From Dromaius novaehollandiae (lineage: Eukaryota > Chordata > Aves > Casuariiformes > Dromaiidae), in assembly GCF_036370855.1 (NCBI RefSeq), contig NC_088117.1, positions 930,001 through 994,000 of the forward strand: a stretch of DNA of 64,000 bases, given 5' to 3'. Positions 11,906 to 47,520 of the stretch are shown here, piece after piece (within the stretch, counting starts at the first letter, position 1; each line of letters begins with the position of its first letter). The position numbers and the translations under genes are program-made. Below the pieces are notes generated by a model. The model was given only the letters and a program-made list of their open reading frames with translations, made no database searches and had not been told where the DNA came from.

Positions 11906-12487
11906 TGATGATGGAATATGGACAATTAGGGGAAAACCAATTCTGCCTCTCCCCAAAATGCAGTTCCTACAGCTAGGTGGTTTCACGAGAAAGCTCATGG
12001 GGGAGCAGAGGCGGTAGCTAGGCAAGTACAGAAAGTCTGGGCCAGTGCAGGAATATACGTGGCTGCAAAAAGAAGAACAGGACATTAGACGAAAGAATCA
12101 CAAAGATATGCACACACAGTGGCCTAACATGGCCAGAAGCCCTAAACTTAGCTCTGTGGGACGTACGAAATGCTCCACAACAACCCGCAGGACTATCACC
12201 AGCTGAAATTCTCTGTGGTAGACCTTTAGGGACTTCTATTCCAGCTAAGAGCAGCCTGTTAGACGGAAATGAACGACTAAGCCAGTGTGATCTAAGTATA
12301 CAAAAAAGGTTTGAAAATCTTAAAAAATATGCTCAGTGGTATCAATCCCCACCACCTGAAATACAAGTGCCTGATACACAGCCTGGGGATGAAGTTTTAG
12401 TTAAAGTATTTTTATGAAAATCCAAGTTAAAACCCAAATGGGACAGGCCATATACTGTCATACTATGTTCCAATTTTGCTGTTAAAG
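11906..12487 (+). pseudogene. Second, diverged integrase segment inside ERV-1
   Basis: This stretch realigns to ERV-1 integrase already seen upstream. 11,908-12,065 matches the HHCC zinc-finger region at about 9,239-9,400. 12,090-12,485 matches the C-terminal part at about 9,822-10,215. The catalytic core between these is missing, and the frame is broken by stops and indels. The copy is clearly diverged from the first one, so it came from a related but different provirus rather than from a recent duplication. Confidence 0.75.
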
Positions 12488-13009
12488 TTAGACTGTACTT
12501 GTATATATTGGGAAAGGCTGTGTATTTATGAGAACCCTTTGTAGTCTTACATTCGTAGAGAACATTGCTGTAAAGACAAGTAATCACTCAAATAGTTGTG
12601 TTGGTAACTTAGTTCTTCAGCTCCTGGTACGTCTTATCCATTGTTACAATCTAATTACACACTGAGTCAAGCTTGACTGCTTACCCCCATCGGAATGGAT
12701 CTTACATTGGTGGAGAAACTACTGCAACGTGATGAGCTGCATCAGCTGCTCGAATGCATCCGAAACAATGGACAAAAAGCTCTAATCACCACTCATCATG
12801 ATAGAGAGGAGATACAGGACGTCTTGGAAAGGGTGAAGCAGGACGGAGCACATCATGGTTGGGGATGATCACCAACTGCAACAGGGATTCATACTCACGT
12901 GTTGTACCCAGGAGTAGTTGTGTTAAGTTTAACCATGTTATGCCTATTACTTATGATCATATTATACATAAGATTATGGAAAGTGATGGTATGCCTTGAC
13001 AGCCTTTGA
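12488..13009 (+). pseudogene. Second env 3' segment with membrane anchor
   Basis: 12,488-12,780 is a diverged repeat of the env tail at about 11,604-11,905, sharing for example the stretch coding VYIG.GC and a leucine-rich helix. It continues into a hydrophobic membrane-spanning segment (about 12,900-12,965, Val/Leu/Ile/Met-rich) with a short basic tail and TGA at 13007-13009. This is the only env end in ERV-1 with an anchor, so the first env copy is truncated by the mosaic junction. Confidence 0.65.
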
Positions 13010-13062
13010 GAACTCTTGTCTAAAGGATTAGCAGGGATGCTTACCAGAAACAAAGGGAGGCC

Positions 13063-13561
13063 TGTTAAAGAATATTGAGCTGGAACTGTCTAGAGGTAAC
13101 AGCTTAGCACAACTTATATAAACCTTGCTTAGCATGAGTAGCTAAATGTGCTGAAGCCTTAGGCTGCACTCAGATAACGTGAGGAACTGTCAGCTAGTCC
13201 AGTAAGGAAGGGCCCCAGGGCCGGTGCAAGGTGGAAAGATAAGGAAGCTTACGAGGAAGCTAAGGCCATCAGCAGAAGCCACCACAATAAAGATAAGGCA
13301 AACCAGGCTGCCTAGAGACAGCAGTGGGAGCCACCGAAGAACACGAAGCCCCCAGAGCCAGATATGGTGATTGGTCTGAAGCTTTGCATGGGGTGTGGGG
13401 AGCTTAGCTTGTGAGGGTATAATTGCCCAGGGATTACTTTGTTTGGGGTGCCTCTTGGGAGGCAGCCAGCTCGAGCTGTAATTCCTGCAGGTGCATCATT
13501 AAATTGTATTGAATTTACTTTGATTTGGCTCTGAACTTCTCAGCGGGAACCCAGGGTCGCA
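13063..13561 (+). repeat. ERV-1 3' LTR
   Basis: The LTR starts TGTTAAAG directly after a purine-rich tract (13,048-13,062) and ends near ...GGTCGCA. It holds a TATA-like box (TATATAAA near 13,116) and AATAAA near 13,286. About 90 bp early in U3 (from CTGTCTAGAGGTA through CCTTAGG) match the ERV-2 LTR. The right edge is approximate because no second LTR copy exists for comparison. Confidence 0.65.
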
Positions 13562-24530: not shown

Positions 24531-24540
24531 ACTCTGCCTG

Positions 24541-24866
24541 CTAAAGCCCTAAAGAAACACTACATCAAAATGCTGTATTTCTCCGTACGTGTTGCCAGTT
24601 TGGCAAAAGAATTGGAGGTGCATCTATCCCTAACTGAACTGTCCTCCATAAAACACAAAAAATCACTCCCACAGGTCAAAAAGCCCCACGCCCGGGTGAA
24701 GACCCCTCCCCGAGCATGTGTAGTAGTAAATTGGTGTGTAAGCAGTAGTATAATTGTCTGTAAATTACTCTCCAATCAGTGTAAAAGGGAAAGTTGCAAA
24801 CCTTGCAATGTGTTTGTAAAAATGCTACTTGAAAAGGCGGGGGAGTGTGCTTGATTTGTGGGAAAC
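24541..24866 (+). repeat. LTR remnant abutting the ERV-2 5' LTR
   Basis: 24,541-24,637 matches 24,978-25,076 inside the ERV-2 5' LTR. 24,775-24,866 matches about 25,535-25,628 of the same LTR. The remnant lacks the sequence between and stops at GGGAAAC, exactly where ERV-2's own TGTTAC begins; an intact LTR continues GGGAAACCACCGAGC. It is a related, older LTR that ERV-2 inserted into or recombined with. Confidence 0.65.
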
Positions 24867-25739
24867 TGTTACAAGACAACCCTGGGAAGCTCAGAAAGAA
24901 TGTTCAAACTAGGTAGTTTAGGATAACTTCTATTTTCTGAAAAGAAGCATTCTTTAATCAAGGGCATCCTAGAACTGCTAAAGCCCTAAAAGAAACATTA
25001 AATCAAAATGTTTTATTTCTAGGTACGTATTGCCAATTTGGCAAAAGAACTGGAGGTGCACGTATCCCTAACTGAAGATCTTGGGACCTGGACTGTCAGT
25101 TATTGAACTCAAGCTGTCTAGAGGTAGCCGCTTCGCACAACTTGTATAAAACTTGCTTAGCATGACTAGCTGAATTTGCTGGAGCCTTAGGCCGCACTCC
25201 TAGTCCAGTGAGAAAGGGCCCCGGAGCTGGTGGAGGCTGGAAAAATGAGGGAGTTACAAGCAGGTTGCATTCCTGCGCTTCACACTCCGAAAGGGAGGAT
25301 GTCAAGGCTTTGAAATAAGGCCTGCTTGGGCGCCAGGAGCCTGGGAGACAAAGCCTCCTCTCACTGCGGGAGCAGTGTTCATTAGGAGGTCTGGACTATC
25401 TCCTCCTCGTCAGGACCTTGGGAGATAACACCTGCTGTCCCTGCTGGGGCAGTGTCAGTTGCTGGAATGACCATCTCCTCCTCAGGACCTTGAGAGACAG
25501 GGGCGGGACCCGGGCAATGAAGAAATCCCTGACCAACCAGTGCAAAAGGGAAAGTTGCAAACCTGCCAATGTGTTTGTCTTGATGCTACTTGAAAAGCTG
25601 GAGGCGGGTGCTTGATTTGTGGGAAACCACCGAGCACCCAGGCTTGCGCAGCTCTGAGCTAAATAAGCCAATGTCTCTGCTGAGTGTGTAATTATTGGCT
25701 TATTGCACACCGGGCAACGAATCCGCTTTTTGGACAACA
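24867..25739 (+). repeat. ERV-2 5' LTR (873 bp)
   Basis: It begins TGTTACAAG and ends GGACAACA, so the ends form the inverted repeat TGTT...AACA. A TATAAAA-like site lies near 25,145. A segment of about 190 bp (roughly 24,935-25,125) is absent from the 3' LTR and matches the adjacent LTR remnant, so it may be the ancestral state. Confidence 0.8.
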
Positions 25740-25745
25740 GTTTTC

Positions 25746-25763
25746 TGGCGACCCAGATGGGAC
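25746..25763 (+). other. Candidate primer-binding site of ERV-2
   Basis: TGGCGACCCAGATGGGAC lies six bases after the 5' LTR and begins TGG, complementary to a tRNA 3' CCA end. It resembles the 3' ends of arginine tRNAs but with several mismatches, so the primer tRNA is only suggested. A possible splice donor (GCGGGTAAGC) follows near 25,890. Confidence 0.5.
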
Positions 25764-26062
25764 CCTCCCTGTAAAGCCTTGCCTGGATCATCTTGCCAGT
25801 TCCCGGCGGGGAGACGCTGCTCTTCGGACTCCAGCGCGCACCGACCGTTTTGTTCGGGGACTCCGCGCGCACCCTCCCCAGTCGGAGCGGGTAAGCGGCT
25901 CAAAGGTGCAACGCAGTAATTATTAAGAGACATTGCATCGAGGGTATGATATAGGGGCAATTGGTTGTGGTAACCCAGTGTAAGCTTTGTACACATTTGG
26001 ACAGTGCCGACTGGAGTGTACGAAAGCATAATTGGTAAGAATGTTCTTTTAAGGGTAATAAT

Positions 26063-27598
26063 ATGGGAACAGGACAATCTGCAGGGGTATCCCCCTGTTC
26101 TCCTTTAGGATGCATCCTGAAACATTGGGATAAGTTTGATGGGGATCCTGTAACAAGGAGAAAATGAAAGGAATACTGTACTCAGTGGTGGCCAATGTAT
26201 AAAGTGGAGGATGAGGGAAAATGGCCAGAAATGGGAACACTAAACTAGAATACAATTTTGCCACTTATGTTGTTTTGCAGAAGACAGAACAAATGGGATG
26301 AGGTCCCATAGGTGGGTTTGTTTTTCTCTCTGAGAAATGATCATGAAAGAAGAAAAAAATGTAAGCTATTGGTCTCTGACTCCAATGTGTTAATGATGAT
26401 GGAAGACAAAGAGAAAATGCCTCGGTGTTGCTCTGCTTGTAGCATTGGGAAAAGATGTTTAAAAGTGGGTGATGAGGAAGAGGATGTACAATTATTGGTC
26501 TCTCCGGAAAGAGATCAAGATAGTGTCGATGGCAGAGGTAAGGGAAGTGAGGCATGTAGCCCAATTGCAGGCAGAACTCGGGCTACTCGGGCTCAACAAA
26601 ATGCTGTGATTGAGGCCGCGCTGCGTCAAGCAGTGGGACCAGACGGACTGCCTGTAGATGCGAAGGTGCCGTTTTCAACTCCAGATTGAATGAATCGGAA
26701 GGAGTCTGCCGGGTCGTACCGAGAAAATCCAGAAAAGATGTATCAATCCTTTAAAATGATAATTGCGAATCATAACCCAGCCTGGCAGGATTTACAGGTG
26801 CTTTTAAATACTTTGCTTGCACCTGAGGAGAAGAGACTGGTATTGGACACAGCTCGAGAGGAAAATGAAAGAGAAAGTGCTAGAGATGGAGCGAACCGTT
26901 TTCCGCCGGCCCAAGAAGCAGATTGGGATCAAAATACAGGGGCAGGCAGGTTAATGACTAAACAGTAGCAACAGTTAATATTATATGGGGTAAAGCATGG
27001 AGTACCTAGGCCCAAGAATATTGCAGAACTATATCAAGTCGCACAGGGTGAGAATGAGGATCCCTCTGCATTTTACGAGCGGTTATGTGAAACCGCCCGA
27101 AAATGGACAGACTTGGATCCCGAGGACGAAGCGAACCAGACGACTTTTACTACATTATTTGTAGGACAATTGGCACCAGCTAGAAGGAGAAAGCTTCAGA
27201 AAGTAGATGGTATGTTGGGGATGTCAATGTCGCAATTAATAGAAATTGCATCTAAGGTGTACAATAACAGGGAAGAAGCAGAGAGAAAGGAAAAGCAGAA
27301 GGAGAAACTGAAAGATAAGAGGCAAAACGCTGCAATCTTGGCAGCTGCATTTGCCCAGGCACAAACTTCCTCTTGGGGAAGAGGCTTTCCAAAAGGATGA
27401 GGATGTGGCAGAGGGCATAGAGTAGGAGGGAATTTGGGAAATAGAATTTCACTGAGGAGAGACCAACGTGCGATCTGTAGGGAGAAGGGGCACTGGGGAA
27501 GTGAGTGCCCGAAGAAACAATCAGATCACTGGAAACCTCCGTCTGTATCTGTTCCAGAGGCAGATTTGCTCCTGATCAGTACAGAAGATTCAGACTGA
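26063..27598 (+). pseudogene. gag: ERV-2 gag, multiply interrupted
   Basis: Gag starts at ATG 26063 with Gly as second residue (MGTGQS), as expected for a myristoylated matrix protein. One frame runs to the TGA at 27596-27598. In-frame stops are at 26165, 26246, 26309, 26687, 26966 and 27398. The matrix is followed by an acidic region (26,500) and a capsid-like domain (about 26,700-27,250). A long Lys/Glu helix comes next, then a nucleocapsid whose zinc knuckle reads RAICREKGHWGSEC, so the first of the three cysteines is Arg. Protease follows the final TGA in the same frame. Confidence 0.85.
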
Positions 27599-30500
27599 TG
27601 GGGACTGGGGGTTGAGAAACTGGATTCCCCAGCTGGACCCCTGCTTTCAGTAAAGCTGGGGAACAAAACAGTTAAATTTTTAGTAGACACTGGAGCAATG
27701 TATTCGGTATTAGACAGCTGTAAGGGACCAATGAGTAAATTCTCTATGCCAGCAATTGGGGCCACGGGAAAGCGAGAGGTCAAACCTTTCTTTCAACCAA
27801 TTAAATGTAAAATAGGAAATAGAGTGTTAACACATGAATTCTCATATGTGCCAGAATGCCCATTACCCCTAATGGGGAGGGATTTACTGAATAAACTGGG
27901 GGCACAGATAATCTTTGATAAAAACAAAGTTCAGGTGCACATTCCACAAAATGGTGCCTGGAAAGCACAAGCCTCTATGTTGCAGAAAGCACTGGATTCT
28001 GAACAGGTGGAGAGTGGACCAAGCGCAATTCCCTCCGAAGTAATGGACACAGTAGTCCCTTTTGTGTGGGCAATGCAGAAACCTGGGAGAGCCAGATATG
28101 TAGAACCGGTACAGGTGGACTTAAAACAAGGAGCTAAATCGGTAAGGCGAAAACAGCATCCCATGAAGTTAGAGGCCCGTGTTGGACCGGAGCCTATCAT
28201 TACTAATTTCTTAAAGTAGGGACTGTTGCGAGACTGTCAATCCGAGTACAATAATCCAATCCTGCCTGTTAAAAAACCACATTCACAAGAATATCGTCTA
28301 GTACAGGATTTGCGAGCTATTAACCAGATAGCGACTGATGTGCACCCAGTGGTACTCAGTCCACACACTTGGTTAACGACAACAAATGATTCAAATGTCT
28401 ATTTTACAGTATTGGATTTAAAAGATGCTTTCTTCTGTATCCCTGTGGAGGAACAAAGTCAACAATTATTCGCCTTTGACTGGGAAAGTCCTACAACGAG
28501 ACGCAAAAAGCAGTTGTGCTGGACAGTACTCCCGCAAGGATTCAAGAACAGCCCTACAATTTTTGGTAAGGTACTCGCAAGAGAATTAGAATTATGGCAA
28601 GGTAAGACAGATACCACTACCTTATTACAGTATGTGGACGATATCTTATTGGGGGCAGACACGACTGAAGAATGTAGAGAAACAAGCATCAGTTTATTAA
28701 ATTTGGGGGCAACAGCGGGATATAGGGTGTCTCAGAAAAAAGTACAGATCACGAAGGAAAGCGTAATCTATCTAGGCTTTGAAATATCCCAGGGGGAAAG
28801 AAAATTAGGAATCAAAAGGAAAGAAGCGATTTGTCAGATCGCCCCCCGAAAATGAAGACGAGACCTTAGGGGATTTTTAGGAATGGCCGGGGGGTGTCGC
28901 CTGTGGATACCTAATTTTGGATTAATGGCAAAGCCTCTCTATGAAGCTGTTAAGGGGCCGGGAGACTTGCTGGAGTGGACTCCAGAGTGCCGAAAAGGAT
29001 TTGATGAAATCAAGATTGCTGTCATGAGTGCTCCCGCATTAGGACTTCCAAACCTAACAAAGCCATTTGACCTTTACGTACATGAGAGAGGGCACCAGGC
29101 GTTGGGAGTGCTCGTACAGACTTTAGGAAACTGGAAAAGACCTGTGGCTTACTTTCCAAAACACTTGGATAAAGTGAGTGCAGGGTGGCCAGGATGCCGG
29201 AGAGCAGTTGCAGCTGCTGTGTTGTTGATACAAGAAGCAGGAAAATTGACGTTGGGACAAAAGGTGACTGTTTATGTGCCACATGCTGTTGCAGCAGTTT
29301 TAGGACAGAAGGGGCATCACTGGTTATCCGCGAGTAGGATGGTGCAATACCAAGCAGTAATACTTGAGCCAGAAGATGGAACCATGAAAGTGTCTAATAC
29401 CCTTAATCTGGCATCTTTATTACCACTTGATGAGGAGGGGAGGTTGGCTCATGACTGCCTGCAAACTCTTGCGCGAGCGTATTCCAGCCGTCCGGATTTG
29501 AGAGATATTCCATTGCAGAATCCAGATTGGGAATTATTTACTGATGGGAGCAGTTTTATAATAAAGGGAGAAAGAAGGGCTGGAGATGCTGTTGTCACTT
29601 TGGAAGAAGAAATCGAAGCAAGATCGCTGCCAGCAAATACATCTGCCCAGAAAGCAGAACTGATTGCTTTAAGCCAGGCTCTGGAAGTATCGGAAGGAAA
29701 ACGGACCAATGTGTTTACAGAGTCAGAATACGCCTTTGGGGTTATACATGCCCATGGCGCAATTTGGAAGGAAAGAGGATTGCTATCTTCTCAAGGGAAT
29801 CCTATAAAATAGAGTAAGGAGATTATGGAGCTACCGGAAGCAGCTAATAACCCCAAAGAAATAGCAGTAATGCATTGCAAAGCGCACCAGTCCAGACAGA
29901 CTGTCATAGTTAAAGGGAACAAAAGGGCCGATGAGGCTGCAAAAAGGGCAGCACTATTCGTGTCGGTGGCAGCCTTAGTTCCAGAGAGAACGCTAAGAAT
30001 GGAAATTCCGGTAGACACTGAAAAAGAAAATAAATTAGCAGAAATACTGAAATGCATCAAGACTTCCGAAGGATGGTGGGTAGCATCTCCTGGACAATGT
30101 GTGGTAACTTTGCTGATAATGAAGAAGCTGATGGAGCAAATACATGATAGTAGCCACATGGGAGCCGAGGCATCGGTTGAAACAGGTAAAAGAGTTGCTG
30201 TGGGAGTTAGTATGTTAATAATTGCAAAGGGTATTACACAAAAATGTGAAATCTGTCTTAGAAATAATCCCAAGATTCAGAAGAAGCCCCCCCCTCCCCA
30301 GGGGAAGTAAAAAGGGGCGTCATGCCTGAGGATTACTGGCAAATTGATTTTTCTGAATTACCAAGCTGTAATGGATATAAATACTTGTTGGTAATTGTTG
30401 ACAGCTTTTCAGGATGGCCTGAGGCTTTCCTGTGTCGCACCAATAAAGCAAGGGAGGTAGTGAAAATGTTATTAAAAGAAATCAAAGCAAGATTTGGGGT

Positions 30501-31179
30501 ACCAGAAGGATTTTCTTTGGATAGGGCACCTCATTTTATAGCAGAAATAGTACAGGAAATCTCAAAAATAGCACAAATTAAATGGGATTTACATACCCCC
30601 TGGAGGCCACAGTGCAGTGGAAAAGTGGAAAGAATGACTCAAACAATGAAGAGAGAGAGAGGAAAATTGTGTCAGGAGACTCAGATGAAATGGACTGATG
30701 TTTTACCTCTGGCATTATTAAGAATCAGAATAACCCCCAGGGTTAGGGAGAAAGTTGGTCCATTTGAGATTCTGTATGGTAAACCTTACACTGTCAATTT
30801 AACTGGAAATGACATTCAGATGCACGTTAAGGGCGATCAAATTTTAAGGGATTCTCTCTTGTCTATGGCAGAGGTTCTTACTTCTCTCCGTAGGTACATC
30901 CAGTTAAGATCTCCCGTACTTTTAGATTCACCTGTACATTCATTCCAGCCGGGAGATCAAGTACATCTTTGGACCTGGAAGGATGAGCCGTTGACAGAAA
31001 AATGGAGAGGACCATATCTTGTACTACTAACAACAAATACTGCTGTGAAACTGCAGGGAATTGGTTCCTGGATCCACTACACCCGAGTGAAAGCAGTGCC
31101 TCGAGAGATGTGGAAAGCTGAACAAGTTCAGCCTTTAATGTTACGAGCTGTATTAGAAGCGAATCGGTTTCAAATTTAG
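27599..31179 (+). pseudogene. pol: ERV-2 pro-pol (unit 1 of the array at its 3' end), interrupted
   Basis: Protease has LVDTGA near 27,680 and MGRDLL near 27,880. Reverse transcriptase has LPQGF near 28,530 and YVDD near 28,632. RNase H (about 29,540-29,800) keeps FTDGSS, but its third acidic position reads TESE instead of TDS. Integrase has an HHCC finger (about 30,145-30,265), QIDF near 30,340, LDRAPHF near 30,520 and GKVERM near 30,620. In-frame stops are TAG 28217, TGA 28853 and TAG 29810. A C8 run at 30,287-30,294 breaks the frame between the zinc finger and the core. From 29,435 on this sequence is the first unit of the tandem array. Confidence 0.9.
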
Positions 31180-31257
31180 ATTGTCTTCAGGGAAGAATTG
31201 CTTTAATCTGTTTGTTAGGAATAGGGTTAATATCGTTGTTATGGTATCTGTGTAAAA

Positions 31258-32029
31258 ATGATGTTCTCCTTAACAACCAGGGGAGAAATGTGGTGGTTAG
31301 TTTTTCTAGGTTCCCTGAGCCAAGCAATTAAAGGGAATCAGGAAGGATTTTGGAGTCACAATCTCCATTTGGAAGTAATTACGAAATCTATGAAGCTAGT
31401 TAACCGGAGGGATTGCTGGGTGCGTACCCACTTCCCTGGCCATTCCAACAAGGGCTTCCTGCTAATTGGAGTGCCTCTTAATTTTTCCTTTATGGAATTT
31501 ATACAACAGATAAGAAATGACAGTGATCAAAGGAAATATGATGAAACAACTGAACAGGAATGGGAATTTCAGAGTGTGACAGGAGATTATTATCAATGTA
31601 TCCGAAGATGTAATAATAGTAATAAATGGTGGGAGAAAACTGTACTTTATGGAAAACAACCGATCAACTGTACTGGAGCCATTAAGGTAGGAGGTTATAA
31701 AAATTGCTATGTTATTGGCATCTCAGGGAGGAGTATGTACAGTAATAAACACTGGTTGCTGTGTATATGTGGATCAAAGCAGGAGAATTTCTGCCGATCT
31801 AAATGAAATCTGGAAGCAGACTGAAATCTTACGTGGGGTTCAGAAAGATGATACTTCTTTCGGATTTGAAGAAACATGGAAATGGTTGACTTCCTGGTTC
31901 CCTGATGTAAGCTCATGGGTTAAAAACTGTTTAACAATTTTGGGAATGGTGTTAGTAGTTTTTGTATGCATTTATGTAGTGATTCAATGCATTTACAAAA
32001 GTAATATGGGAAAGATTTTAAAAGAGTGA
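31258..32029 (+). pseudogene. env: ERV-2 env, internally deleted (unit 1)
   Basis: 31,258-31,806 encodes an N-terminal part of the surface subunit with a hydrophobic leader (WWLVFLGSL) and several NxS/T sites. In another frame, 31,709-32,029 encodes the end of a gammaretrovirus-like transmembrane subunit. That part has the CX6CC motif (CTVINTGCC), a Trp-rich pre-membrane stretch, a membrane span near 31,935-32,000 and a short tail. The cleavage site, fusion peptide and helical region between are missing, so the join near 31,700 is a deletion with frameshift. This differs in type from the env of ERV-1. Confidence 0.75.
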
Positions 32030-32065
32030 GACTAATATGATCATCTAAGTCTCAAAAGGGGGAAT

Positions 32066-32820
32066 TGTTACAAGACAACCCTGGGAAGCTCAGAAAGAAT
32101 GTTTGAAGTAGGTAGATTAGGATAACTTCTATCTCTCTTTTCTAAAAAACTGAAGCTGTCTAGAGGTAGCCACTTAGATAAAATTTGCTTAGCATGAGTA
32201 GCTAAATTTGCTGAAGCCTTAGGCCGCACACTTGCTTAGCATGAGTAGCTAAATTTGCTGAAGCCTTAGGCCGTACTCCTAGTTCAGTAAGAAAGGGCCC
32301 CACAGCTGGCGCAGGCTGGAAAGATAAGGGAGTTACAAGCAGTCTGCATTCCTGTGCCCTACTCTCCGAAAGGGAGGATGTCAAGGCTTTGAAATAAGGC
32401 CTGCTTGGGCGCCAGGACCTTGGGAAGCAAAGCCTCCTCTCACTGTTGAAACAATGTTAATTAAGGGGTCTGGATTATATCCTCTTCGTCAGGACCTTGG
32501 GAGATAACACCTACTGACCCTGCTGGGGCAGTGTCAGTTGCTGAAATTACTATCTCCCCTCATCAGGACCTTGAGAGGCAGGGGTGGGAGCCAGGGAATG
32601 AAGAAATCACTAACCAATCAGTGCAAAAGGGAAAGCTGCAAACCTGCCAATGTGTTTGTCTTGATGCTACTTGAAAAGTTGGAGGGGGGTGCTTGATTTG
32701 TGGGAAACCACCGAGCACCCAGGCTTGCGCAACTCTGAACTAAATAAGCCAATGTCTCTGCTGAGTGTGTAATTATTGGCTTATTGCACACCAGGCAACG
32801 AATCCGCTTTTCGGACAACA
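32066..32820 (+). repeat. ERV-2 3' LTR (755 bp), unit 1
   Basis: It follows the purine tract CTCAAAAGGGGGAAT and has the same TGTTACAAG start and GGACAACA end as the 5' LTR. A 47-bp stretch is tandemly duplicated at 32,185-32,278. A CCAAT box lies near 32,610. Confidence 0.85.
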
Positions 32821-33929
32821 AAAGTGGACCTATATTTGTTGATTAGCAAAGAGAGAATGACCTTACAAAGCTGGAGCTTTGGAAGCAAAGGGCACTGTGT
32901 CAACACAGGCTGCTTGCCCTGAGCAGCATTAAGAACAGCAAGAGAGCATAAAGTAATACTTAAACTCCAGTTAACTGAATGTGTAGTTTGCTTCCAGCAG
33001 CATCTTGAACTGTCTTTGTTGTCCCGTTCCTTAACCATCTGTGCTGTGCTATTTTTGTTCCAATCACATAGTATCAGTCTTCAAGGATTATGGAGGGTCC
33101 TGTATGGTTCCTGTAAGGTGAGAAATAAGCATTTAAAAAATGAAATCAGTTTCAGAGGTCATGGATAAACTGTAAACCAAATGTGATTGTTAAAGCCCCC
33201 ATTCTTATAACAGTTTGTTAAAAAAAAAACCCAAACACCACCAGCTTCAGGCTACTGTTCACTGGAAAACTACTATTACAGTAAGCACTGACACTATTGA
33301 TTTGAGTTAGAATGAAATAGAAAAGAAATAGGGCATGTTGCACCTTGCCTAGAATAAGGGCCCAGGAGGGCCCTCATCTTCTGAGGGACAGAAGATTTTA
33401 CAAAATTAATCAAAATGAAAAATATTCATTTTGCTTAATACATTATTTGAAGTTTCCCAGGTACTTTGTGATGAAAATCTCAACGACCTTTGCACTTCTT
33501 TTGTTATTTACTCTTTTTAAAGAGGTATTACAGGAAAGAATTGTCATACTTCTGTAGTGTGTTCATCCTAGAAGTGGCAAACCTGACCTTAAAGCTAACT
33601 TTAGTGGGACGGGGTTCAAACTCACCTCTCCCACCTCTCACTCTAATGCAGTTGTCATCAGACTATAAAGTTAGTTCTACTGGTTGGACTTGCTATCATC
33701 CTGGCTGCTAGAAAAAGCATGACTCTATAGGCTGATGGTTAGGGTTATTAGCAGTGAGACAGACAGTCGACAGGCAGACGGAGTCCTATTTTTTTCTCTT
33801 GGGTTTGTTTGTGTACTCTACATATAGCAGTCATCACTCCCTCTACTGGCCTGAATTAAAAAGAAGAGACTGGCTGCGTTTTATAAAGATCCTGATCTTC
33901 TCTGAGTATATAGGGAGTATTTTGAAAAT
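32821..33929. other. Host flank of ERV-2 (unit 1), no gene recognised
   Basis: This 1.1-kb A/T-rich stretch lies right of the 3' LTR. Short frames exist, but none shows a domain or splice chain. It was copied with the ERV into units 2 and 3. Confidence 0.5.
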
Positions 33930-34586
33930 ACAATAAATATGACATGGGTTTATCATGGTAGATTGTGCCCAACTAATATCTTTTTTGATAGGGTGAATGA
34001 TTCCATTGAAAAGAAAGATCAACTATCTCTAATCGCACTGGAATTCAGTAAAAGAGTTGGTGCACTGCAATGGAAAAAAATCTTCTGGTTAAAGTGGAGC
34101 TTTCTAAAAAACTGTAAGCGATGGGTATGGGGAGGGCACGAGGAGCTAAAAAAATGAAAGCAACAAATATCCATGCTGAAAAAAGTGCTGTATAGTTGAA
34201 TACAGGTGACTAGTGGACTCCCTTGAGGATCAAGTGTCAGACTGATTTTAGTTAACATTTTCATTTCTGGTCTTGACACAAAAAGAGTACGTGACTGTTT
34301 GTTGATGACAAAAAGCTGAGAGGCACTACTAAGTCAGGTGACACCGGCCAACATAGTGGAAGGAAATGGAATGATTGGTACAAAACACAGTGCTAACAAG
34401 TGACAATTTGGTTATGTGGGGGCAAAGAAGAACTCTTACAGCTGGAGATATCAGAGATCACCTCCAAGGAAAAGGTGTTAGCTAACCATTGGATGCTTAG
34501 GAGCCACAAGACAGCTTCAGGAATAAAACATAAGCAGAAACCATCCTACGGTGTAGCAGATGAAAAAATAGGGAAATGTAAACATA
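33930..34586 (+). mobile_element. Old CR1-like LINE fragment (unit 1, cut at the duplication junction)
   Basis: Decayed matches to the end of a CR1 reverse-transcriptase frame are visible. They include a stretch reading like ...LEFSK near 34,040 and TTTGTTGATGACAAAAAGCTG near 34,297, which corresponds to the common CR1 segment coding FADDTKL. It has many stops and is very old. Confidence 0.55.
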
Positions 34587-36332
34587 GAGGGGAGGTTGGC
34601 TCATGACTGCCTGCAAACTCTTGCGCGAGCGTATTCCAGCCGTCCGGATTTGAGAGATATTCCATTGCAGAATCCAGATTGGGAATTATTTACTGATGGG
34701 AGCAGTTTTATAATAAAGGGAGAAAGAAGGGCTGGAGATGCTGTTGTCACTTTGGAAGAAGAAATCGAAGCAAGATCGCTGCCAGCAAATACATCTGCCC
34801 AGAAAGCAGAACTGATTGCTTTAAGCCAGGCTCTGGAAGTATCGGAAGGAAAACGGACCAATGTGTTTACAGAGTCAGAATACGCCTTTGGGGTTATACA
34901 TGCCCATGGCGCAATTTGGAAGGAAAGAGGATTGCTATCTTCTCAAGGGAATCCTATAAAATAGAGTAAGGAGATTATGGAGCTACTGGAAGCAGCTAAT
35001 AACCCCAAAGAAATAGCAGTAATGCATTGCAAAGCGCACCAGTCCAGACAGACTGTCATAGTTAAAGGGAACAAAAGGGCCGATGAGGCTGCAAAAAGGG
35101 CAGCACTATTCGTGTCGGTGGCAGCCTTAGTTCCAGAGAGAACGCTAAGAATGGAAATTCCGGTAGACACTGAAAAAGAAAATAAATTAGCAGAAATACT
35201 GAAATGCATCAAGACTTCCGAAGGATGGTGGGTAGCATCTCCTGGACAATGTGTGGTAACTTTGCTGATAATGAAGAAGCTGATGGAGCAAATACATGAT
35301 AGTAGCCACATGGGAGCCGAGGCATCGGTTGAAACAGGTAAAAGAGTTGCTGTGGGAGTTAGTATGTTAATAATTGCAAAGGGTATTACACAAAAATGTG
35401 AAATCTGTCTTAGAAATAATCCCAAGATTCAGAAGAAGCCCCCCCCCTCCCCAGGGGAAGTAAAAAGGGGCATCATGCCTGAGGATTACTGGCAAATTGA
35501 TTTTTCTGAATTACCAAGCTGTAATGGATATAAATACTTGTTGGTAATTGTTGACAGCTTTTCAGGATGGCCTGAGGCTTTCCTGTGTCGCACCAATAAA
35601 GCAAGGGAGGTAGTGAAAATGTTATTAAAAGAAATCAAAGCAAGATTTGGGGTACCAGAAGGATTTTCTTTGGATAGGGCACCTCATTTTATAGCAGAAA
35701 TAGTACAGGAAATCTCAAAAATAGCACAAATTAAATGGGATTTACATACCCCCTGGAGGCCACAGTGCAGTGGAAAAGTGGAAAGAATGACTCAAACAAT
35801 GAAGAGAGAGAGAGGAAAATTGTGTCAGGAGACTCAGATGAAATGGACTGATGTTTTACCTCTGGCATTATTAAGAATCAGAATAACCCCCAGGGTTAGG
35901 GAGAAAGTTGGTCCATTTGAGATTCTGTATGGTAAACCTTACACTGTCAATTTAACTGGAAATGACATTCAGATGCACGTTAAGGGCGATCAAATTTTAA
36001 GGGATTCTCTCTTGTCTATGGCAGAGGTTCTTACTTCTCTCCGTAGGTACATCCAGTTAAGATCTCCCGTACTTTTAGATTCACCTGTACATTCATTCCA
36101 GCCGGGAGATCAAGTACATCTTTGGACCTGGAAGGATGAGCCGTTGACAGAAAAATGGAGAGGACCATATCTTGTACTACTAACAACAAATACTGCTGTG
36201 AAACTGCAGGGAATTGGTTCCTGGATCCACTACACCCGAGTGAAAGCAGTGCCTCGAGAGATGTGGAAAGCTGAACAAGTTCAGCCTTTAATGTTACGAG
36301 TTGTATTAGAAGCGAATCGGTTTCAAATTTAG
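34587..36332 (+). pseudogene. ERV-2 RNase H-integrase fragment, unit 2
   Basis: It begins inside RNase H at the duplication junction. A TAG remains at 34,962-34,964. After it a single frame of 451 codons (34,977-36,332) is open, because the C run at 35,439-35,447 has nine C instead of eight. No gag, protease or reverse transcriptase accompanies it, and no LTR promoter lies directly upstream within the unit. Confidence 0.9.
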
Positions 36333-36410
36333 ATTGTCTTCAGGGAAGAATTGCTTTAATCTGTTTGTTAGGAATAGGGTTAATATCGTTGTTATGGTAT
36401 CTGTGTAAAA

Positions 36411-37182
36411 ATGATGTTCTCCTTAACAACCAGGGGAGAAATGTGGTGGTTAGTTTTTCTAGGTTCCCTGAGCCAAGCAATTAAAGGGAATCAGGAAGGA
36501 TTTTGGAGTCACAATCTCCATTTGGAAGTAATTACGAAATCTATGAAGCTAGTTAACCGGAGGGATTGCTGGGTGCGTACCCACTTCCCTGGCCATTCCA
36601 ACAAGGGCTTCCTGCTAATTGGAGTGCCTCTTAATTTTTCCTTTATGGAATTTATACAACAGATAAGAAATGACAGTGATCAAAGGAAATATGATGAAAC
36701 AACCGAACAGGAATGGGAATTTCAGAGTGTGACAGGAGATTATTATCAATGTATCCGAAGATGTAATAATAGTAATAAATGGTGGGAGAAAACTGTACTT
36801 TATGGAAAACAACCGATCAACTGTACTGGAGCCATTAAGGTAGGAGGTTATAAAAATTGCTATGTTATTGGCATCTCAGGGAGGAGTATGTACAGTAATA
36901 AACACTGGTTGCTGTGTATATGTGGATCAAAGCAGGAGAATTTCTGCCGATCTAAATGAAATCTGGAAGCAGACTGAAATCTTACGTGGGGTTCAGAAAG
37001 ATGATACTTCTTTCGGATTTGAAGAAACATGGAAATGGTTGACTTCCTGGTTCCCTGATGTAAGCTCATGGGTTAAAAACTGTTTAACAATTTTGGGAAT
37101 GGTGTTAGTAGTTTTTGTATGCATTTATGTAGTGATTCAATGCATTTACAAAAGTAATATGGGAAAGATTTTAAAAGAGTGA
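36411..37182 (+). pseudogene. ERV-2 env, internally deleted, unit 2
   Basis: Same deleted structure as unit 1, with one substitution (Ser or Gly codon on the opposite strand; C for T near 36,703) shared with unit 3. Confidence 0.85.
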
Positions 37183-37218
37183 GACTAATATGATCATCTA
37201 AGTCTCAAAAGGGGGAAT

Positions 37219-37973
37219 TGTTACAAGACAACCCTGGGAAGCTCAGAAAGAATGTTTGAAGTAGGTAGATTAGGATAACTTCTATCTCTCTTTTCTAAAA
37301 AACTGAAGCTGTCTAGAGGTAGCCACTTAGATAAAATTTGCTTAGCATGAGTAGCTAAATTTGCTGAAGCCTTAGGCCGCACACTTGCTTAGCATGAGTA
37401 GCTAAATTTGCTGAAGCCTTAGGCCGTACTCCTAGTTCAGTAAGAAAGGGCCCCACAGCTGGCGCAGGCTGGAAAGATAAGGGAGTTACAAGCAGTCTGC
37501 ATTCCTGTGCCCTACTCTCCGAAAGGGAGGATGTCAAGGCTTTGAAATAAGGCCTGCTTGGGCGCCAGGACCTTGGGAAGCAAAGCCTCCTCTCACTGTT
37601 GAAACAATGTTAATTAAGGGGTCTGGATTATATCCTCTTCGTCAGGACCTTGGGAGATAACACCTACTGACCCTGCTGGGGCAGTGTCAGTTGCTGAAAT
37701 TACTATCTCCCCTCATCAGGACCTTGAGAGGCAGGGGTGGGAGCCAGGGAATGAAGAAATCACTAACCAATCAGTGCAAAAGGGAAAGCTGCAAACCTGC
37801 CAATGTGTTTGTCTTGATGCTACTTGAAAAGTTGGAGGGGGGTGCTTGATTTGTGGGAAACCACCGAGCACCCAGGCTTGCGCAACTCTGAACTAAATAA
37901 GCCAATGTCTCTGCTGAGTGTGTAATTATTGGCTTATTGCACACCAGGCAACGAATCCGCTTTTCGGACAACA
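37219..37973 (+). repeat. ERV-2 3' LTR, unit 2
   Basis: Same length, ends and 47-bp internal duplication as the LTR of unit 1; no difference noticed by eye. Confidence 0.9.
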
Positions 37974-39739
37974 AAAGTGGACCTATATTTGTTGATTAGC
38001 AAAGAGAGAATGACCTTACAAAGCTGGAGCTTTGGAAGCAAAGGGCACTGTGTCAACACAGGCTGCTTGCCCTGAGCAGCATTAAGAACAGCAAGAGAGC
38101 ATAAAGTAATACTTAAACTCCAGTTAACTGAATGTGTAGTTTGCTTCCAGCAGCATCTTGAACTGTCTTTGTTGTCCCGTTCCTTAACCATCTGTGCTGT
38201 GCTATTTTTGTTCCAATCACATAGTATCAGTCTTCAAGGATTATGGAGGGTCCTGTATGGTTCCTGTAAGGTGAGAAATAAGCATTTAAAAAATGAAATC
38301 AGTTTCAGAGGTCATGGATAAACTGTAAACCAAATGTGATTGTTAAAGCCCCCATTCTTATAACAGTTTGTTAAAAAAAAAACCCAAACACCACCAGCTT
38401 CAGGCTACTGTTCACTGGAAAACTACTATTACAGTAAGCACTGACACTATTGATTTGAGTTAGAATGAAATAGAAAAGAAATAGGGCATGTTGCACCTTG
38501 CCTAGAATAAGGGCCCAGGAGGGCCCTCATCTTCTGAGGGACAGAAGATTTTACAAAATTAATCAAAATGAAAAATATTCATTTTGCTTAATACATTATT
38601 TGAAGTTTCCCAGGTACTTTGTGATGAAAATCTCAACGACCTTTGCACTTCTTTTGTTATTTACTCTTTTTAAAGAGGTATTACAGGAAAGAATTGTCAT
38701 ACTTCTGTAGTGTGTTCATCCTAGAAGTGGCAAACCTGACCTTAAAGCTAACTTTAGTGGGACGGGGTTCAAACTCACCTCTCCCACCTCTCACTCTAAT
38801 GCAGTTGTCATCAGACTATAAAGTTAGTTCTACTGGTTGGACTTGCTATCATCCTGGCTGCTAGAAAAAGCATGACTCTATAGGCTGATGGTTAGGGTTA
38901 TTAGCAGTGAGACAGACAGTCGACAGGCAGACGGAGTCCTATTTTTTTCTCTTGGGTTTGTTTGTGTACTCTACATATAGCAGTCATCACTCCCTCTACT
39001 GGCCTGAATTAAAAAGAAGAGACTGGCTGCGTTTTATAAAGATCCTGATCTTCTCTGAGTATATAGGGAGTATTTTGAAAATACAATAAATATGACATGG
39101 GTTTATCATGGTAGATTGTGCCCAACTAATATCTTTTTTGATAGGGTGAATGATTCCATTGAAAAGAAAGATCAACTATCTCTAATCGCACTGGAATTCA
39201 GTAAAAGAGTTGGTGCACTGCAATGGAAAAAAATCTTCTGGTTAAAGTGGAGCTTTCTAAAAAACTGTAAGCGATGGGTATGGGGAGGGCACGAGGAGCT
39301 AAAAAAATGAAAGCAACAAATATCCATGCTGAAAAAAGTGCTGTATAGTTGAATACAGGTGACTAGTGGACTCCCTTGAGGATCAAGTGTCAGACTGATT
39401 TTAGTTAACATTTTCATTTCTGGTCTTGACACAAAAAGAGTACGTGACTGTTTGTTGATGACAAAAAGCTGAGAGGCACTACTAAGTCAGGTGACACCGG
39501 CCAACATAGTGGAAGGAAATGGAATGATTGGTACAAAACACAGTGCTAACAAGTGACAATTTGGTTATGTGGGGGCAAAGAAGAACTCTTACAGCTGGAG
39601 ATATCAGAGATCACCTCCAAGGAAAAGGTGTTAGCTAACCATTGGATGCTTAGGAGCCACAAGACAGCTTCAGGAATAAAACATAAGCAGAAACCATCCT
39701 ACGGTGTAGCAGATGAAAAAATAGGGAAATGTAAACATA
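37974..39739. other. Copied host flank and CR1 fragment, unit 2
   Basis: Copy of 32,821-34,586, with the CR1-like part from about 39,083. It ends at the second RNase H junction. Confidence 0.85.
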
Positions 39740-41485
39740 GAGGGGAGGTTGGCTCATGACTGCCTGCAAACTCTTGCGCGAGCGTATTCCAGCCGTCCGG
39801 ATTTGAGAGATATTCCATTGCAGAATCCAGATTGGGAATTATTTACTGATGGGAGCAGTTTTATAATAAAGGGAGAAAGAAGGGCTGGAGATGCTGTTGT
39901 CACTTTGGAAGAAGAAATCGAAGCAAGATCGCTGCCAGCAAATACATCTGCCCAGAAAGCAGAACTGATTGCTTTAAGCCAGGCTCTGGAAGTATCGGAA
40001 GGAAAACGGACCAATGTGTTTACAGAGTCAGAATACGCCTTTGGGGTTATACATGCCCATGGCGCAATTTGGAAGGAAAGAGGATTGCTATCTTCTCAAG
40101 GGAATCCTATAAAATAGAGTAAGGAGATTATGGAGCTACTGGAAGCAGCTAATAACCCCAAAGAAATAGCAGTAATGCATTGCAAAGCGCACCAGTCCAG
40201 ACAGACTGTCATAGTTAAAGGGAACAAAAGGGCCGATGAGGCTGCAAAAAGGGCAGCACTATTCGTGTCGGTGGCAGCCTTAGTTCCAGAGAGAACGCTA
40301 AGAATGGAAATTCCGGTAGACACTGAAAAAGAAAATAAATTAGCAGAAATACTGAAATGCATCAAGACTTCCGAAGGATGGTGGGTAGCATCTCCTGGAC
40401 AATGTGTGGTAACTTTGCTGATAATGAAGAAGCTGATGGAGCAAATACATGATAGTAGCCACATGGGAGCCGAGGCATCGGTTGAAACAGGTAAAAGAGT
40501 TGCTGTGGGAGTTAGTATGTTAATAATTGCAAAGGGTATTACACAAAAATGTGAAATCTGTCTTAGAAATAATCCCAAGATTCAGAAGAAGCCCCCCCCC
40601 TCCCCAGGGGAAGTAAAAAGGGGCATCATGCCTGAGGATTACTGGCAAATTGATTTTTCTGAATTACCAAGCTGTAATGGATATAAATACTTGTTGGTAA
40701 TTGTTGACAGCTTTTCAGGATGGCCTGAGGCTTTCCTGTGTCGCACCAATAAAGCAAGGGAGGTAGTGAAAATGTTATTAAAAGAAATCAAAGCAAGATT
40801 TGGGGTACCAGAAGGATTTTCTTTGGATAGGGCACCTCATTTTATAGCAGAAATAGTACAGGAAATCTCAAAAATAGCACAAATTAAATGGGATTTACAT
40901 ACCCCCTGGAGGCCACAGTGCAGTGGAAAAGTGGAAAGAATGACTCAAACAATGAAGAGAGAGAGAGGAAAATTGTGTCAGGAGACTCAGATGAAATGGA
41001 CTGATGTTTTACCTCTGGCATTATTAAGAATCAGAATAACCCCCAGGGTTAGGGAGAAAGTTGGTCCATTTGAGATTCTGTATGGTAAACCTTACACTGT
41101 CAATTTAACTGGAAATGACATTCAGATGCACGTTAAGGGCGATCAAATTTTAAGGGATTCTCTCTTGTCTATGGCAGAGGTTCTTACTTCTCTCCGTAGG
41201 TACATCCAGTTAAGATCTCCCGTACTTTTAGATTCACCTGTACATTCATTCCAGCCGGGAGATCAAGTACATCTTTGGACCTGGAAGGATGAGCCGTTGA
41301 CAGAAAAATGGAGAGGACCATATCTTGTACTACTAACAACAAATACTGCTGTGAAACTGCAGGGAATTGGTTCCTGGATCCACTACACCCGAGTGAAAGC
41401 AGTGCCTCGAGAGATGTGGAAAGCTGAACAAGTTCAGCCTTTAATGTTACGAGTTGTATTAGAAGCGAATCGGTTTCAAATTTAG
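39740..41485 (+). pseudogene. ERV-2 RNase H-integrase fragment, unit 3
   Basis: Same as unit 2, including the nine-C run (40,592-40,600) and the 451-codon frame 40,130-41,485. Confidence 0.9.
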
Positions 41486-41563
41486 ATTGTCTTCAGGGAA
41501 GAATTGCTTTAATCTGTTTGTTAGGAATAGGGTTAATATCGTTGTTATGGTATCTGTGTAAAA

Positions 41564-42335
41564 ATGATGTTCTCCTTAACAACCAGGGGAGAAATGTGGT
41601 GGTTAGTTTTTCTAGGTTCCCTGAGCCAAGCAATTAAAGGGAATCAGGAAGGATTTTGGAGTCACAATCTCCATTTGGAAGTAATTACGAAATCTATGAA
41701 GCTAGTTAACCGGAGGGATTGCTGGGTGCGTACCCACTTCCCTGGCCATTCCAACAAGGGCTTCCTGCTAATTGGAGTGCCTCTTAATTTTTCCTTTATG
41801 GAATTTATACAACAGATAAGAAATGACAGTGATCAAAGGAAATATGATGAAACAACCGAACAGGAATGGGAATTTCAGAGTGTGACAGGAGATTATTATC
41901 AATGTATCCGAAGATGTAATAATAGTAATAAATGGTGGGAGAAAACTGTACTTTATGGAAAACAACCGATCAACTGTACTGGAGCCATTAAGGTAGGAGG
42001 TTATAAAAATTGCTATGTTATTGGCATCTCAGGGAGGAGTATGTACAGTAATAAACACTGGTTGCTGTGTATATGTGGATCAAAGCAGGAGAATTTCTGC
42101 CGATCTAAATGAAATCTGGAAGCAGACTGAAATCTTACGTGGGGTTCAGAAAGATGATACTTCTTTCGGATTTGAAGAAACATGGAAATGGTTGACTTCC
42201 TGGTTCCCTGATGTAAGCTCATGGGTTAAAAACTGTTTAACAATTTTGGGAATGGTGTTAGTAGTTTTTGTATGCATTTATGTAGTGATTCAATGCATTT
42301 ACAAAAGTAATATGGGAAAGATTTTAAAAGAGTGA
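41564..42335 (+). pseudogene. ERV-2 env, internally deleted, unit 3
   Basis: Indistinguishable by eye from the unit 2 copy. Confidence 0.85.
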
Positions 42336-42371
42336 GACTAATATGATCATCTAAGTCTCAAAAGGGGGAAT

Positions 42372-43126
42372 TGTTACAAGACAACCCTGGGAAGCTCAGA
42401 AAGAATGTTTGAAGTAGGTAGATTAGGATAACTTCTATCTCTCTTTTCTAAAAAACTGAAGCTGTCTAGAGGTAGCCACTTAGATAAAATTTGCTTAGCA
42501 TGAGTAGCTAAATTTGCTGAAGCCTTAGGCCGCACACTTGCTTAGCATGAGTAGCTAAATTTGCTGAAGCCTTAGGCCGTACTCCTAGTTCAGTAAGAAA
42601 GGGCCCCACAGCTGGCGCAGGCTGGAAAGATAAGGGAGTTACAAGCAGTCTGCATTCCTGTGCCCTACTCTCCGAAAGGGAGGATGTCAAGGCTTTGAAA
42701 TAAGGCCTGCTTGGGCGCCAGGACCTTGGGAAGCAAAGCCTCCTCTCACTGTTGAAACAATGTTAATTAAGGGGTCTGGATTATATCCTCTTCGTCAGGA
42801 CCTTGGGAGATAACACCTACTGACCCTGCTGGGGCAGTGTCAGTTGCTGAAATTACTATCTCCCCTCATCAGGACCTTGAGAGGCAGGGGTGGGAGCCAG
42901 GGAATGAAGAAATCACTAACCAATCAGTGCAAAAGGGAAAGCTGCAAACCTGCCAATGTGTTTGTCTTGATGCTACTTGAAAAGTTGGAGGGGGGTGCTT
43001 GATTTGTGGGAAACCACCGAGCACCCAGGCTTGCGCAACTCTGAACTAAATAAGCCAATGTCTCTGCTGAGTGTGTAATTATTGGCTTATTGCACACCAG
43101 GCAACGAATCCGCTTTTCGGACAACA
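42372..43126 (+). repeat. ERV-2 3' LTR, unit 3
   Basis: Third copy of the 755-bp LTR, with the same internal 47-bp duplication. Confidence 0.9.
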
Positions 43127-44235
43127 AAAGTGGACCTATATTTGTTGATTAGCAAAGAGAGAATGACCTTACAAAGCTGGAGCTTTGGAAGCAAAGGGCA
43201 CTGTGTCAACACAGGCTGCTTGCCCTGAGCAGCATTAAGAACAGCAAGAGAGCATAAAGTAATACTTAAACTCCAGTTAACTGAATGTGTAGTTTGCTTC
43301 CAGCAGCATCTTGAACTGTCTTTGTTGTCCCGTTCCTTAACCATCTGTGCTGTGCTATTTTTGTTCCAATCACATAGTATCAGTCTTCAAGGATTATGGA
43401 GGGTCCTGTATGGTTCCTGTAAGGTGAGAAATAAGCATTTAAAAAATGAAATCAGTTTCAGAGGTCATGGATAAACTGTAAACCAAATGTGATTGTTAAA
43501 GCCCCCATTCTTATAACAGTTTGTTAAAAAAAAAACCCAAACACCACCAGCTTCAGGCTACTGTTCACTGGAAAACTACTATTACAGTAAGCACTGACAC
43601 TATTGATTTGAGTTAGAATGAAATAGAAAAGAAATAGGGCATGTTGCACCTTGCCTAGAATAAGGGCCCAGGAGGGCCCTCATCTTCTGAGGGACAGAAG
43701 ATTTTACAAAATTAATCAAAATGAAAAATATTCATTTTGCTTAATACATTATTTGAAGTTTCCCAGGTACTTTGTGATGAAAATCTCAACGACCTTTGCA
43801 CTTCTTTTGTTATTTACTCTTTTTAAAGAGGTATTACAGGAAAGAATTGTCATACTTCTGTAGTGTGTTCATCCTAGAAGTGGCAAACCTGACCTTAAAG
43901 CTAACTTTAGTGGGACGGGGTTCAAACTCACCTCTCCCACCTCTCACTCTAATGCAGTTGTCATCAGACTATAAAGTTAGTTCTACTGGTTGGACTTGCT
44001 ATCATCCTGGCTGCTAGAAAAAGCATGACTCTATAGGCTGATGGTTAGGGTTATTAGCAGTGAGACAGACAGTCGACAGGCAGACGGAGTCCTATTTTTT
44101 TCTCTTGGGTTTGTTTGTGTACTCTACATATAGCAGTCATCACTCCCTCTACTGGCCTGAATTAAAAAGAAGAGACTGGCTGCGTTTTATAAAGATCCTG
44201 ATCTTCTCTGAGTATATAGGGAGTATTTTGAAAAT
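43127..44235. other. Host flank, unit 3, no gene recognised
   Basis: Same content as 32,821-33,929. Confidence 0.7.
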
Positions 44236-45140
44236 ACAATAAATATGACATGGGTTTATCATGGTAGATTGTGCCCAACTAATATCTTTTTTGATAGGGT
44301 GAATGATTCCATTGAAAAGAAAGATCAACTATCTCTAATCGCACTGGAATTCAGTAAAAGAGTTGGTGCACTGCAATGGAAAAAAAGTCTTCTGGTTAAA
44401 GTGGAGCTTTCTAAAAAACTGTAAGCGATGGGTATGGGGAGGGCACGAGGAGCTAAAAAAATGAAAGCAACAAATATCCATGCTGAAAAAAGTGCTGTAT
44501 AGTTGAATACAGGTGACTAGTGGACTCCCTTGAGGATCAAGTGTCAGACTGATTTTAGTTAACATTTTCATTTCTGGTCTTGACACAAAAAGAGTACGTG
44601 ACTGTTTGTTGATGACAAAAAGCTGAGAGGCACTACTAAGTCAGGTGACACCGGCCAACATAGTGGAAGGAAATGGAATGATTGGTACAAAACACAGTGC
44701 TAACAAGTGACAATTTGGTTATGTGGGGGCAAAGAAGAACTCTTACAGCTGGAGATATCAGAGATCACCTCCAAGGAAAAGGTGTTAGCTAACCATTGGA
44801 TGCTTAGGAGCCACAAGACAGCTCCAGGAATAAAACATAAGCAGGAACCATCCTACGGTGTAGCAGATGAAAAAATAGGGAAATGTAAACATAGAAGGCA
44901 CTTCACCCAGAACTGTGTGTGGTATTTTGGCCAGGCAAGAGGAATTCAAAGTGGAAGAGATGTTAGCAGAAGGAAAAAGGATATACAAACCATTTATAAT
45001 TCAGGCTGGGCTGTGACATTACTACTTTTTAAACAGGAATAATGGGGCAAAGGACCTAGTTTTATGATGCAGCATGAACAGCATAGTTAAAAGAAAAAAT
45101 GATAGGATGCAATTCCAAAAGGTCTCTTCCAGTCCTGTAT
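44236..45140 (+). mobile_element. Old CR1-like LINE fragment, uninterrupted copy
   Basis: Here the CR1-like sequence continues past the duplication breakpoint (44,893) to about 45,140. It ends in a stretch resembling the common CR1 3' region (CCAAAAGGTCTCTTCCAGTCC). This copy shows the original arrangement before duplication. It has three private differences from units 1 and 2: an extra G near 44,388, C near 44,823 and G near 44,845. Confidence 0.6.
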
Positions 45141-46879: not shown

Positions 46880-47520
46880 AGGAGCTAGCCACGGCAGGGT
46901 GACGGCGAGCGCGCGCAGGCCTCAGCGGGGAGAGCCGCTGGCCCTGCAGGAGCCGTGCGGGAGGTGGGGGCAGCCCCAGCAAACGCCGCGCCCCGGCTCC
47001 TGCGGAGCAGCTTCGGCCCCCTGCAGACTGTAAGCGAGGAGAAGGCACCCCAGGCTGCACGAAGCGAGGACTCTCCGGGCCTTTCCTCCTCAGGCCTTCG
47101 CTGCAGACGCTCCGGGGCCTCCGGGCCGCTGCGGAGGCGCTGCCGGGGCCCGGCGGCGGCCCCGCCTCCCTCGCCCCGCTACCGTCTCCACGGCAACGCG
47201 GGCGCCGCCGAGGCGGAGCGCGGCCGCTGCGGAGCCGTCGGCGGGGGCCGCCGCCATGGAGGCCGGTGCCGAGCGAGTTTCCAGTCAGGCGGCGGCCGAG
47301 GGCGGCGCAGAGGAGGCGGCAGCGCCCGGCGACGGCAGCGGGCCTGGGGGCGGCGAGGTGCGCGGGCCGCGGGGAGCCGCCGTCGGGGAGCGCCCTGCCT
47401 GGCGCAACCGGCTGCAAGCGGGGCCCCCCGCCGCCGCCCCCCGGCCTGGGCCGGGCCGGGGAGCCGGGCCAGGCGGTGGGAGCGCGCCGTGCAGGGCTTT
47501 CTGCCTTCGTGTTCCCCACC
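46880..47520. promoter_or_regulatory. CpG island promoter of ANKMY1
   Basis: CpG-dense, G+C-rich sequence surrounds exon 1 of ANKMY1. It includes an NRF1-like GCGCGCAGGC near 46,910 and the X-box-like site at 47,184. No TATA box is seen. Confidence 0.65.
47184..47197 (+). promoter_or_regulatory. RFX X-box-like site 59 bp before the ANKMY1 start codon
   Basis: GTCTCCACGGCAAC matches the RFX consensus GTNRCCNNRGYAAC at all but one position (T for R). X-boxes near the start site are typical of ciliary genes under RFX and FOXJ1 control. Confidence 0.5.

Follow-up and report, generated by a model that had tools for sequence, protein, structure and literature searches.

Three near-identical tandem units carrying half of an old endogenous retrovirus upstream of ANKMY1 in the emu

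We analysed a 64,000-nucleotide stretch of the emu genome (Dromaius novaehollandiae, assembly GCF_036370855.1, contig NC_088117.1, positions 930,001 to 994,000 of the forward strand), hereafter the window, in which half of an endogenous retrovirus (ERV) and its host flank stand three times in tandem upstream of the gene ANKMY1. We consider it likely that the array arose in three stages: an old provirus, a non-homologous tandem duplication that included half of it, and an unequal crossover that added the third unit.

A preliminary description of this DNA had reported three near-identical direct units of 5,152-5,154 bp, and both self-comparison and alignment agreed with it. In the comparison of the window with itself, the segment 29435-39741 matched 34587-44895 in a single direct match of 10,309 columns at 99.92% identity, with 6 mismatches and 2 gap openings. 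When the three units were aligned, 8 of the 5154 columns differed (6 substitutions and 2 one-base length differences). Three 5 kb copies at an identity of at least 99.8% cannot arise by chance. The units and the junctions between them are as follows (LTR, long terminal repeat).

29435..34586, + strand: unit 1 (copy A), 5152 bp; begins in pol shortly upstream of RNase H and continues through integrase, the start of env and the 3' LTR into 1.77 kb of host flank that includes a CR1-like piece
34587..39739, + strand: unit 2 (mosaic), 5153 bp
39740..44893, + strand: unit 3 (copy B), 5154 bp; its right end is inside a CR1-like fragment and is followed by single-copy flank
34577..34596, + strand: junction 1, from flank (CR1 side) to pol, with 2 shared bp (GA) and zero inserted bases
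39730..39749, + strand: junction 2, the same as junction 1
36705..39233, + strand: putative crossover interval in unit 2, from the last left to the first right difference; holds the LTR

Both internal junctions were identical to the letter, with 30 bases before and 40 bases after each compared (2 of 2), so the array has one origin. Each unit also has an open reading frame (ORF) in the env position, named by position and by eye, which had zero matches in Pfam. We observed that a piece of pol forms a single 451-codon open frame in unit 2 (34977-36332) and in unit 3 (40130-41485), and is split into two shorter ORFs in unit 1 (29825-31179).

The distribution of the eight differences along the unit carries the argument for the crossover. 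At the five left differences (unit columns 401-2118) unit 1 differed from units 2 and 3, while at the three right differences (unit columns 4648-5106) unit 3 differed from units 1 and 2. Unit 2 had no private difference; it equalled unit 3 at 5 of 5 left sites and unit 1 at 3 of 3 right sites. Because the differences sort in this way, unit 2 reads as a mosaic with the left part of B and the right part of A. The 2.5 kb between the two groups of sites (36705..39233) was identical across all three units. The polarity is informative as well, since an expansion by crossover predicts a middle unit with the left part of unit 3 and the right part of unit 1, not the reverse. Were the private unit drawn at random for every difference, the observed type would account for 9 of 6561 patterns and any single switch for 45 of 6561, and with the 5/3 counts given the order alone has a chance of 1 in 56; these odds were calculated post hoc, after the pattern had been seen. 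The mosaic, evidence that the preliminary description had not used, supports its proposal that unequal crossing over added a unit.

The place of the breakpoints informs on the first duplication. The provirus and its LTRs were mapped as follows.

24867-32820, + strand: parent provirus, from the 5' LTR to the 3' LTR of unit 1
24867..25739, + strand: proviral 5' LTR, not part of the tandem array
32066..32820, + strand: 3' LTR of unit 1, 755 bp
37219..37973, + strand: 3' LTR of unit 2, 755 bp
42372..43126, + strand: 3' LTR of unit 3, 755 bp
44611..44982, + strand: CR1-like fragment whose match runs collinearly over the right breakpoint at 44893 (provisional consensus)

The left breakpoint (29435) corresponds to approximately residue 185 of the ORF starting at 28883. 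In this ORF Pfam placed a connection-type domain at residues 58-159 and RNase_H at 216-309; the break thus falls in the linker just before RNase H, and not inside that domain as had been described at first. The right breakpoint (44893) is located in the host flank, so that 1.77 kb of host DNA is included in each unit. The outer edges of units 1 and 3 seem to be undisturbed ancestral sites, because the pol ORF (28883-29812) runs uninterrupted through 29435 and the CR1-like match crosses 44893. Recombination between LTRs was rejected as the source of the array, as no breakpoint is inside an LTR: the break in pol and the break in the flank both lie outside all four mapped LTRs.

At the join the source sites share 2 bp only (GA). 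We searched them for further homology within 30, 100 and 300 bp on either side, in direct and in inverted orientation, and none of the six comparisons went beyond shuffled sequence (of 300 shuffles, between 10% and 95% reached the local alignment score). We therefore rejected the idea that the breakpoints conceal an inverted repeat or a longer stretch of homology (0 of 6 comparisons above shuffles). These comparisons support the initial view that the sites have only GA in common and that the first duplication was not driven by homology, and they point, as far as sequence can tell, to a non-homologous or microhomology route.

The CR1 origin of the right site, also proposed in the preliminary description, was upheld in one respect and not in another. 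Against a provisional CR1 consensus, with 200 shuffles of dinucleotide blocks, the + strand gave a collinear match over 44893 with a score of 139 (shuffle maximum 109, z 5.4). The left part by itself scored 89 (shuffle maximum 99, z 2.9) and the right part by itself 54 (shuffle maximum 66, z 1.6); neither the minus strand nor the control flank gave a score beyond shuffles. On the other hand, when the right breakpoint site was compared with a CR1-like copy elsewhere in the window (58.8-59.9 kb), the match was not above shuffles. The latter copy is provisionally called CR1-like; a 129-aa piece of it had no Pfam match.

The two stages are separated by a large difference in age. The 5' and 3' LTRs of the provirus were 90.4% identical over 591 aligned columns, with a Kimura two-parameter distance of 0.103 (589 sites), while copies A and B differed by 6 substitutions in 5152 bp, or 0.12% (interval 0.04-0.25%). 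The ratio of these divergences, which is independent of rate, was 88 (41-241), in line with the original statement that the amplification is far younger than the insertion. The substitution rate of birds is 1.9e-9 per site per year, and ratites may evolve more slowly than this. With this rate, the divergence of A and B is ≈0.3 million years (0.11-0.67) and the age of the provirus ≈27 million years, the latter with the caveat that the LTRs are rearranged outside the aligned part. The figure for A and B estimates their divergence and not the date of the duplication, as A and B may derive from different alleles. The crossover may be younger still, because none of the differences in ≈10.3 kb of informative sequence has to be later than the third copy.

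The proposed order of events would then run as follows. At the outset, an ancient class I provirus (24867-32820) would have lain upstream of ANKMY1. Much later, a point in pol would have been joined to a point in the CR1-like piece 1.77 kb past the 3' LTR, giving a 5.15 kb tandem duplication A-B; with 2 bp in common, end joining or replication template switching would fit this event. A and B would have come to differ at eight positions, either by fresh mutation or by descent from two different alleles. Copy B of one chromatid would subsequently have paired with copy A of another, with a crossover within the 2.5 kb interval (columns 2118-4648). The product would be A, B-left/A-right, B, which matches the window, provided that the crossover took place in the animal and that the assembly is correct.

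The last proviso matters, since near-identical 5 kb repeats are a classic site of assembly copy-number error. If the real array had two copies, the assembler could have reported three by fusing two haplotypes out of register or by traversing a repeat loop one time too many. We regard such an error as unlikely but deserving of serious attention, as an out-of-register join gives exactly the mosaic A, B/A, B. At the same time, joining two haplotypes should, depending on the heterozygosity of the bird, have added allelic differences over ≈5 kb, and 0 of the 8 differences are of that kind. Neither should overlap assembly create the junction between pol and CR1: its 2-bp overlap would be too short for it to invent, so at least one real duplication is needed, and a duplication is very probably real. 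Several points do weigh against the proposed order. The array was analysed in one assembly sequence, a haplotype join would turn a genuine two-copy array into a mosaic indistinguishable from that of the crossover, and the mosaic signal comprises eight differences only, with pattern odds that are post hoc. Moreover, the right site is putatively CR1 by comparison with a provisional consensus, and the 2-bp junction does not separate end joining, template switching and circle reintegration as the first step.

Two further explanations assume three real copies. All three units could have been produced at once, by a rolling circle, by repeated template switching or by insertion of a multimeric circle, with the eight differences as later private mutations. 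The identical junctions and near-identical units would fit such an origin, and a 2-bp junction suits replication-based mechanisms. Yet private changes would be expected anywhere, while unit 2 has none and those of units 1 and 3 are sorted to the left and to the right (9 of the 6561 patterns); from this sorting we judged a simultaneous triplication very improbable. Alternatively, gene conversion within a three-copy array could have made unit 2 resemble its neighbours, the left part being taken from unit 3 and the right part from unit 1. It is the edge units of arrays that diverge first, and conversion would yield the same mosaic; it would, however, need two conversions of the right polarity and would leave the origin of the third copy unexplained, and we give it very little credence.

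The parent provirus had four Pfam matches above cut-off: PF18697, PF00078, PF00075 and PF00665. Its integrase has a C-terminal domain of the murine leukaemia virus (MLV) type, which accompanies reverse transcriptase, RNase H and the integrase core. We take this set of domains to be a mark of class I retroviruses, and it points to a class I (gamma-like) provirus and not to class II; the name 'ERV-2' used at first for the element was probably that reader's own label for the second ERV in the window. In a protein search with the integrase piece, the top named entries among the best 120 of 208 matches were from birds, and lower entries came also from reptiles, bats, a rodent, a frog and cartilaginous fish, with one labelled Klebsiella. 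A search for loci related to the integrase in viral contigs found none.

The ends of the provirus showed some irregularities. Inspected by eye, the flanks GGGAAAC and AAAGTGG had no 4-6 bp repeat between them that could be a target-site duplication. Fragments of another LTR from this family lie at 24538-24866. One of them (24762-24866), ≈84-85% like an inner part of the LTR, abuts the 5' LTR, and because of it the 5' edge of the provirus seems rearranged. The other (24538-24638) is 88% like a part of the LTR that is matched in the 5' LTR and absent from the 3' LTR match. Within the 3' LTR of unit 1 (32185-32273), and at the equivalent places of units 2 and 3, there are two exact 42-bp copies 47 bp apart, both of which match one place in the 5' LTR.

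Downstream of the array, the first coding exon of the host gene was located as follows.

47256..47357, + strand: ANKMY1 first coding exon, in a CpG island; 34 residues in common with emu protein P0121

The identification of the gene as ANKMY1, made earlier without database searches, was corroborated by domains and by protein matches. In a domain scan of ten ANKMY1 pieces, one had MORN, four had ankyrin (two of the four above the curated cut-off) and five had nothing; the MYND part was not seen within the window. The joined exon translations matched 520 proteins; among the best 120 of these, ANKMY1 proteins from ratites and from other birds came first, and nine exon pieces matched emu P0121 in order. 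Compared exon by exon with 12 listed proteins, the emu entries were closest (97.3% over 513 residues, and 98.7% over 302 for two of them), followed by kiwi (94.1%).

Distances of 14.4, 9.3 and 4.1 kb separate the ends of the three 3' LTRs from the ANKMY1 start (47256), which lies downstream of them on the same strand. The preliminary description had counted three extra LTRs; since one 3' LTR was there before, the number is two. The array thus adds two LTR copies upstream of ANKMY1, with a promoter role that is putative and a function that is undemonstrated.

Three emu ANKMY1-like entries (P0121, P0167 and P0196) were found among the matches listed, on contigs of 1.02, 1.82 and 14.7 Mb. Over 299 residues the window differed from P0167 at 2 positions, from P0196 at 2, from P0121 at 8, from kiwi at 20 and from rhea at 21 (five proteins compared); this comparison covers 7 of the 9 exon pieces, two being omitted as they are absent from P0167 and P0196. 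By protein likeness the window thus belongs to emu or to a very close relative such as a cassowary, a bird with no protein among the best 120 matches. Between P0121 and P0196 there were 11 mismatches in 483 aligned columns, and between P0167 and P0196 there were 21 mismatches and 12 gaps over 587, including one stretch with differing exon use. At least two ANKMY1-like loci in emu are likely from these sequences, with the reservation that the entries may stem from different assemblies; P0167 and P0196 may stand for separate loci or for two haplotypes. ANKMY1 itself may therefore have been multiplied in emu. Because there are three such entries on three contigs, a single-gene setting may be too simple for the array.

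We also entertained a bolder and quite unlikely reading, in which the array would be a live LTR cassette of variable copy number, an incipient macrosatellite in a multiplied region of the emu genome, with LTR dosage altering the expression of ANKMY1. If it were true, each crossover would add or remove one LTR in steps of 5.15 kb upstream of the gene, and LTR dosage near a gene would be tuned by recombination and not by transposition.

The window has other repeated elements. A second, separate ERV at 5400-13255 contains ORFs that by eye resemble gag, pol and env, and at 13073-13255 there are stretches akin to the LTR of the tripled provirus. When the window was compared with itself in 20-base words, no pair of LTRs belonging to this second element was seen. 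Outside the ERVs, a direct duplication of ≈360 bp with 86% identity was observed at 22022-22763. An Rfam scan of the window had 0 matches. Two ERVs per 64 kb are dense for a bird. One study gives 22% transposable elements for the emu W compared to 6.4% on autosomes (PMC8310711).

We did not find the array locus reported in the literature searched. In outline, the array is a further example of a known process, in which a tandem duplication of the microhomology type is later enlarged by unequal crossing over. The textbook case has the same steps and a mosaic inner unit, and there is no essential difference from it; the unit here happens to contain half a provirus. A tandem unit that bears a transposon could also expand by unequal exchange. 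Satellite DNA seeded by transposable elements, the subject of a review (PMC12628747), is comparable in that its tandem unit bears a transposon, whereas the emu array has three units only; no signs of further expansion of the array were seen in the window.

The array resembles in form the human HERV-K(HML-2) loci at 7p22.1 and 6q14.1, which are direct tandem proviral copies as well; they vary between individuals and were studied with long reads (PMC11807958). In those loci three LTRs sandwich two internal regions, while the breaks of the emu array are in pol and in host flank. Its units, unlike those of the 7p22.1 kind, are not bounded by LTRs, and each contains 1.77 kb of host DNA. In the K222/K111 HERV-K proviruses (PMC4425911), host recombination likewise multiplied a provirus long after insertion and made recombinants between copies, and the provirus is without the 5' LTR and gag, similar to the 5'-truncated emu copies. 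Those copies are spread over the pericentromeres of nine chromosomes, in CER repeats, compared to three head-to-tail copies at one locus beside a gene in emu.

The array offers a clean case of host recombination multiplying an old provirus together with its flank, with an order of steps that can be read from eight differences. If the crossover reading is true, two-copy alleles as well as reciprocal one-copy alleles are predicted in the species, the reciprocal allele being a single unit with the states of unit 1 on the left and those of unit 3 on the right. Read-depth tests at the locus must allow for possible additional ANKMY1-like loci. The array is also a caution that copy counts of ERVs or LTRs can grow without any new insertion.

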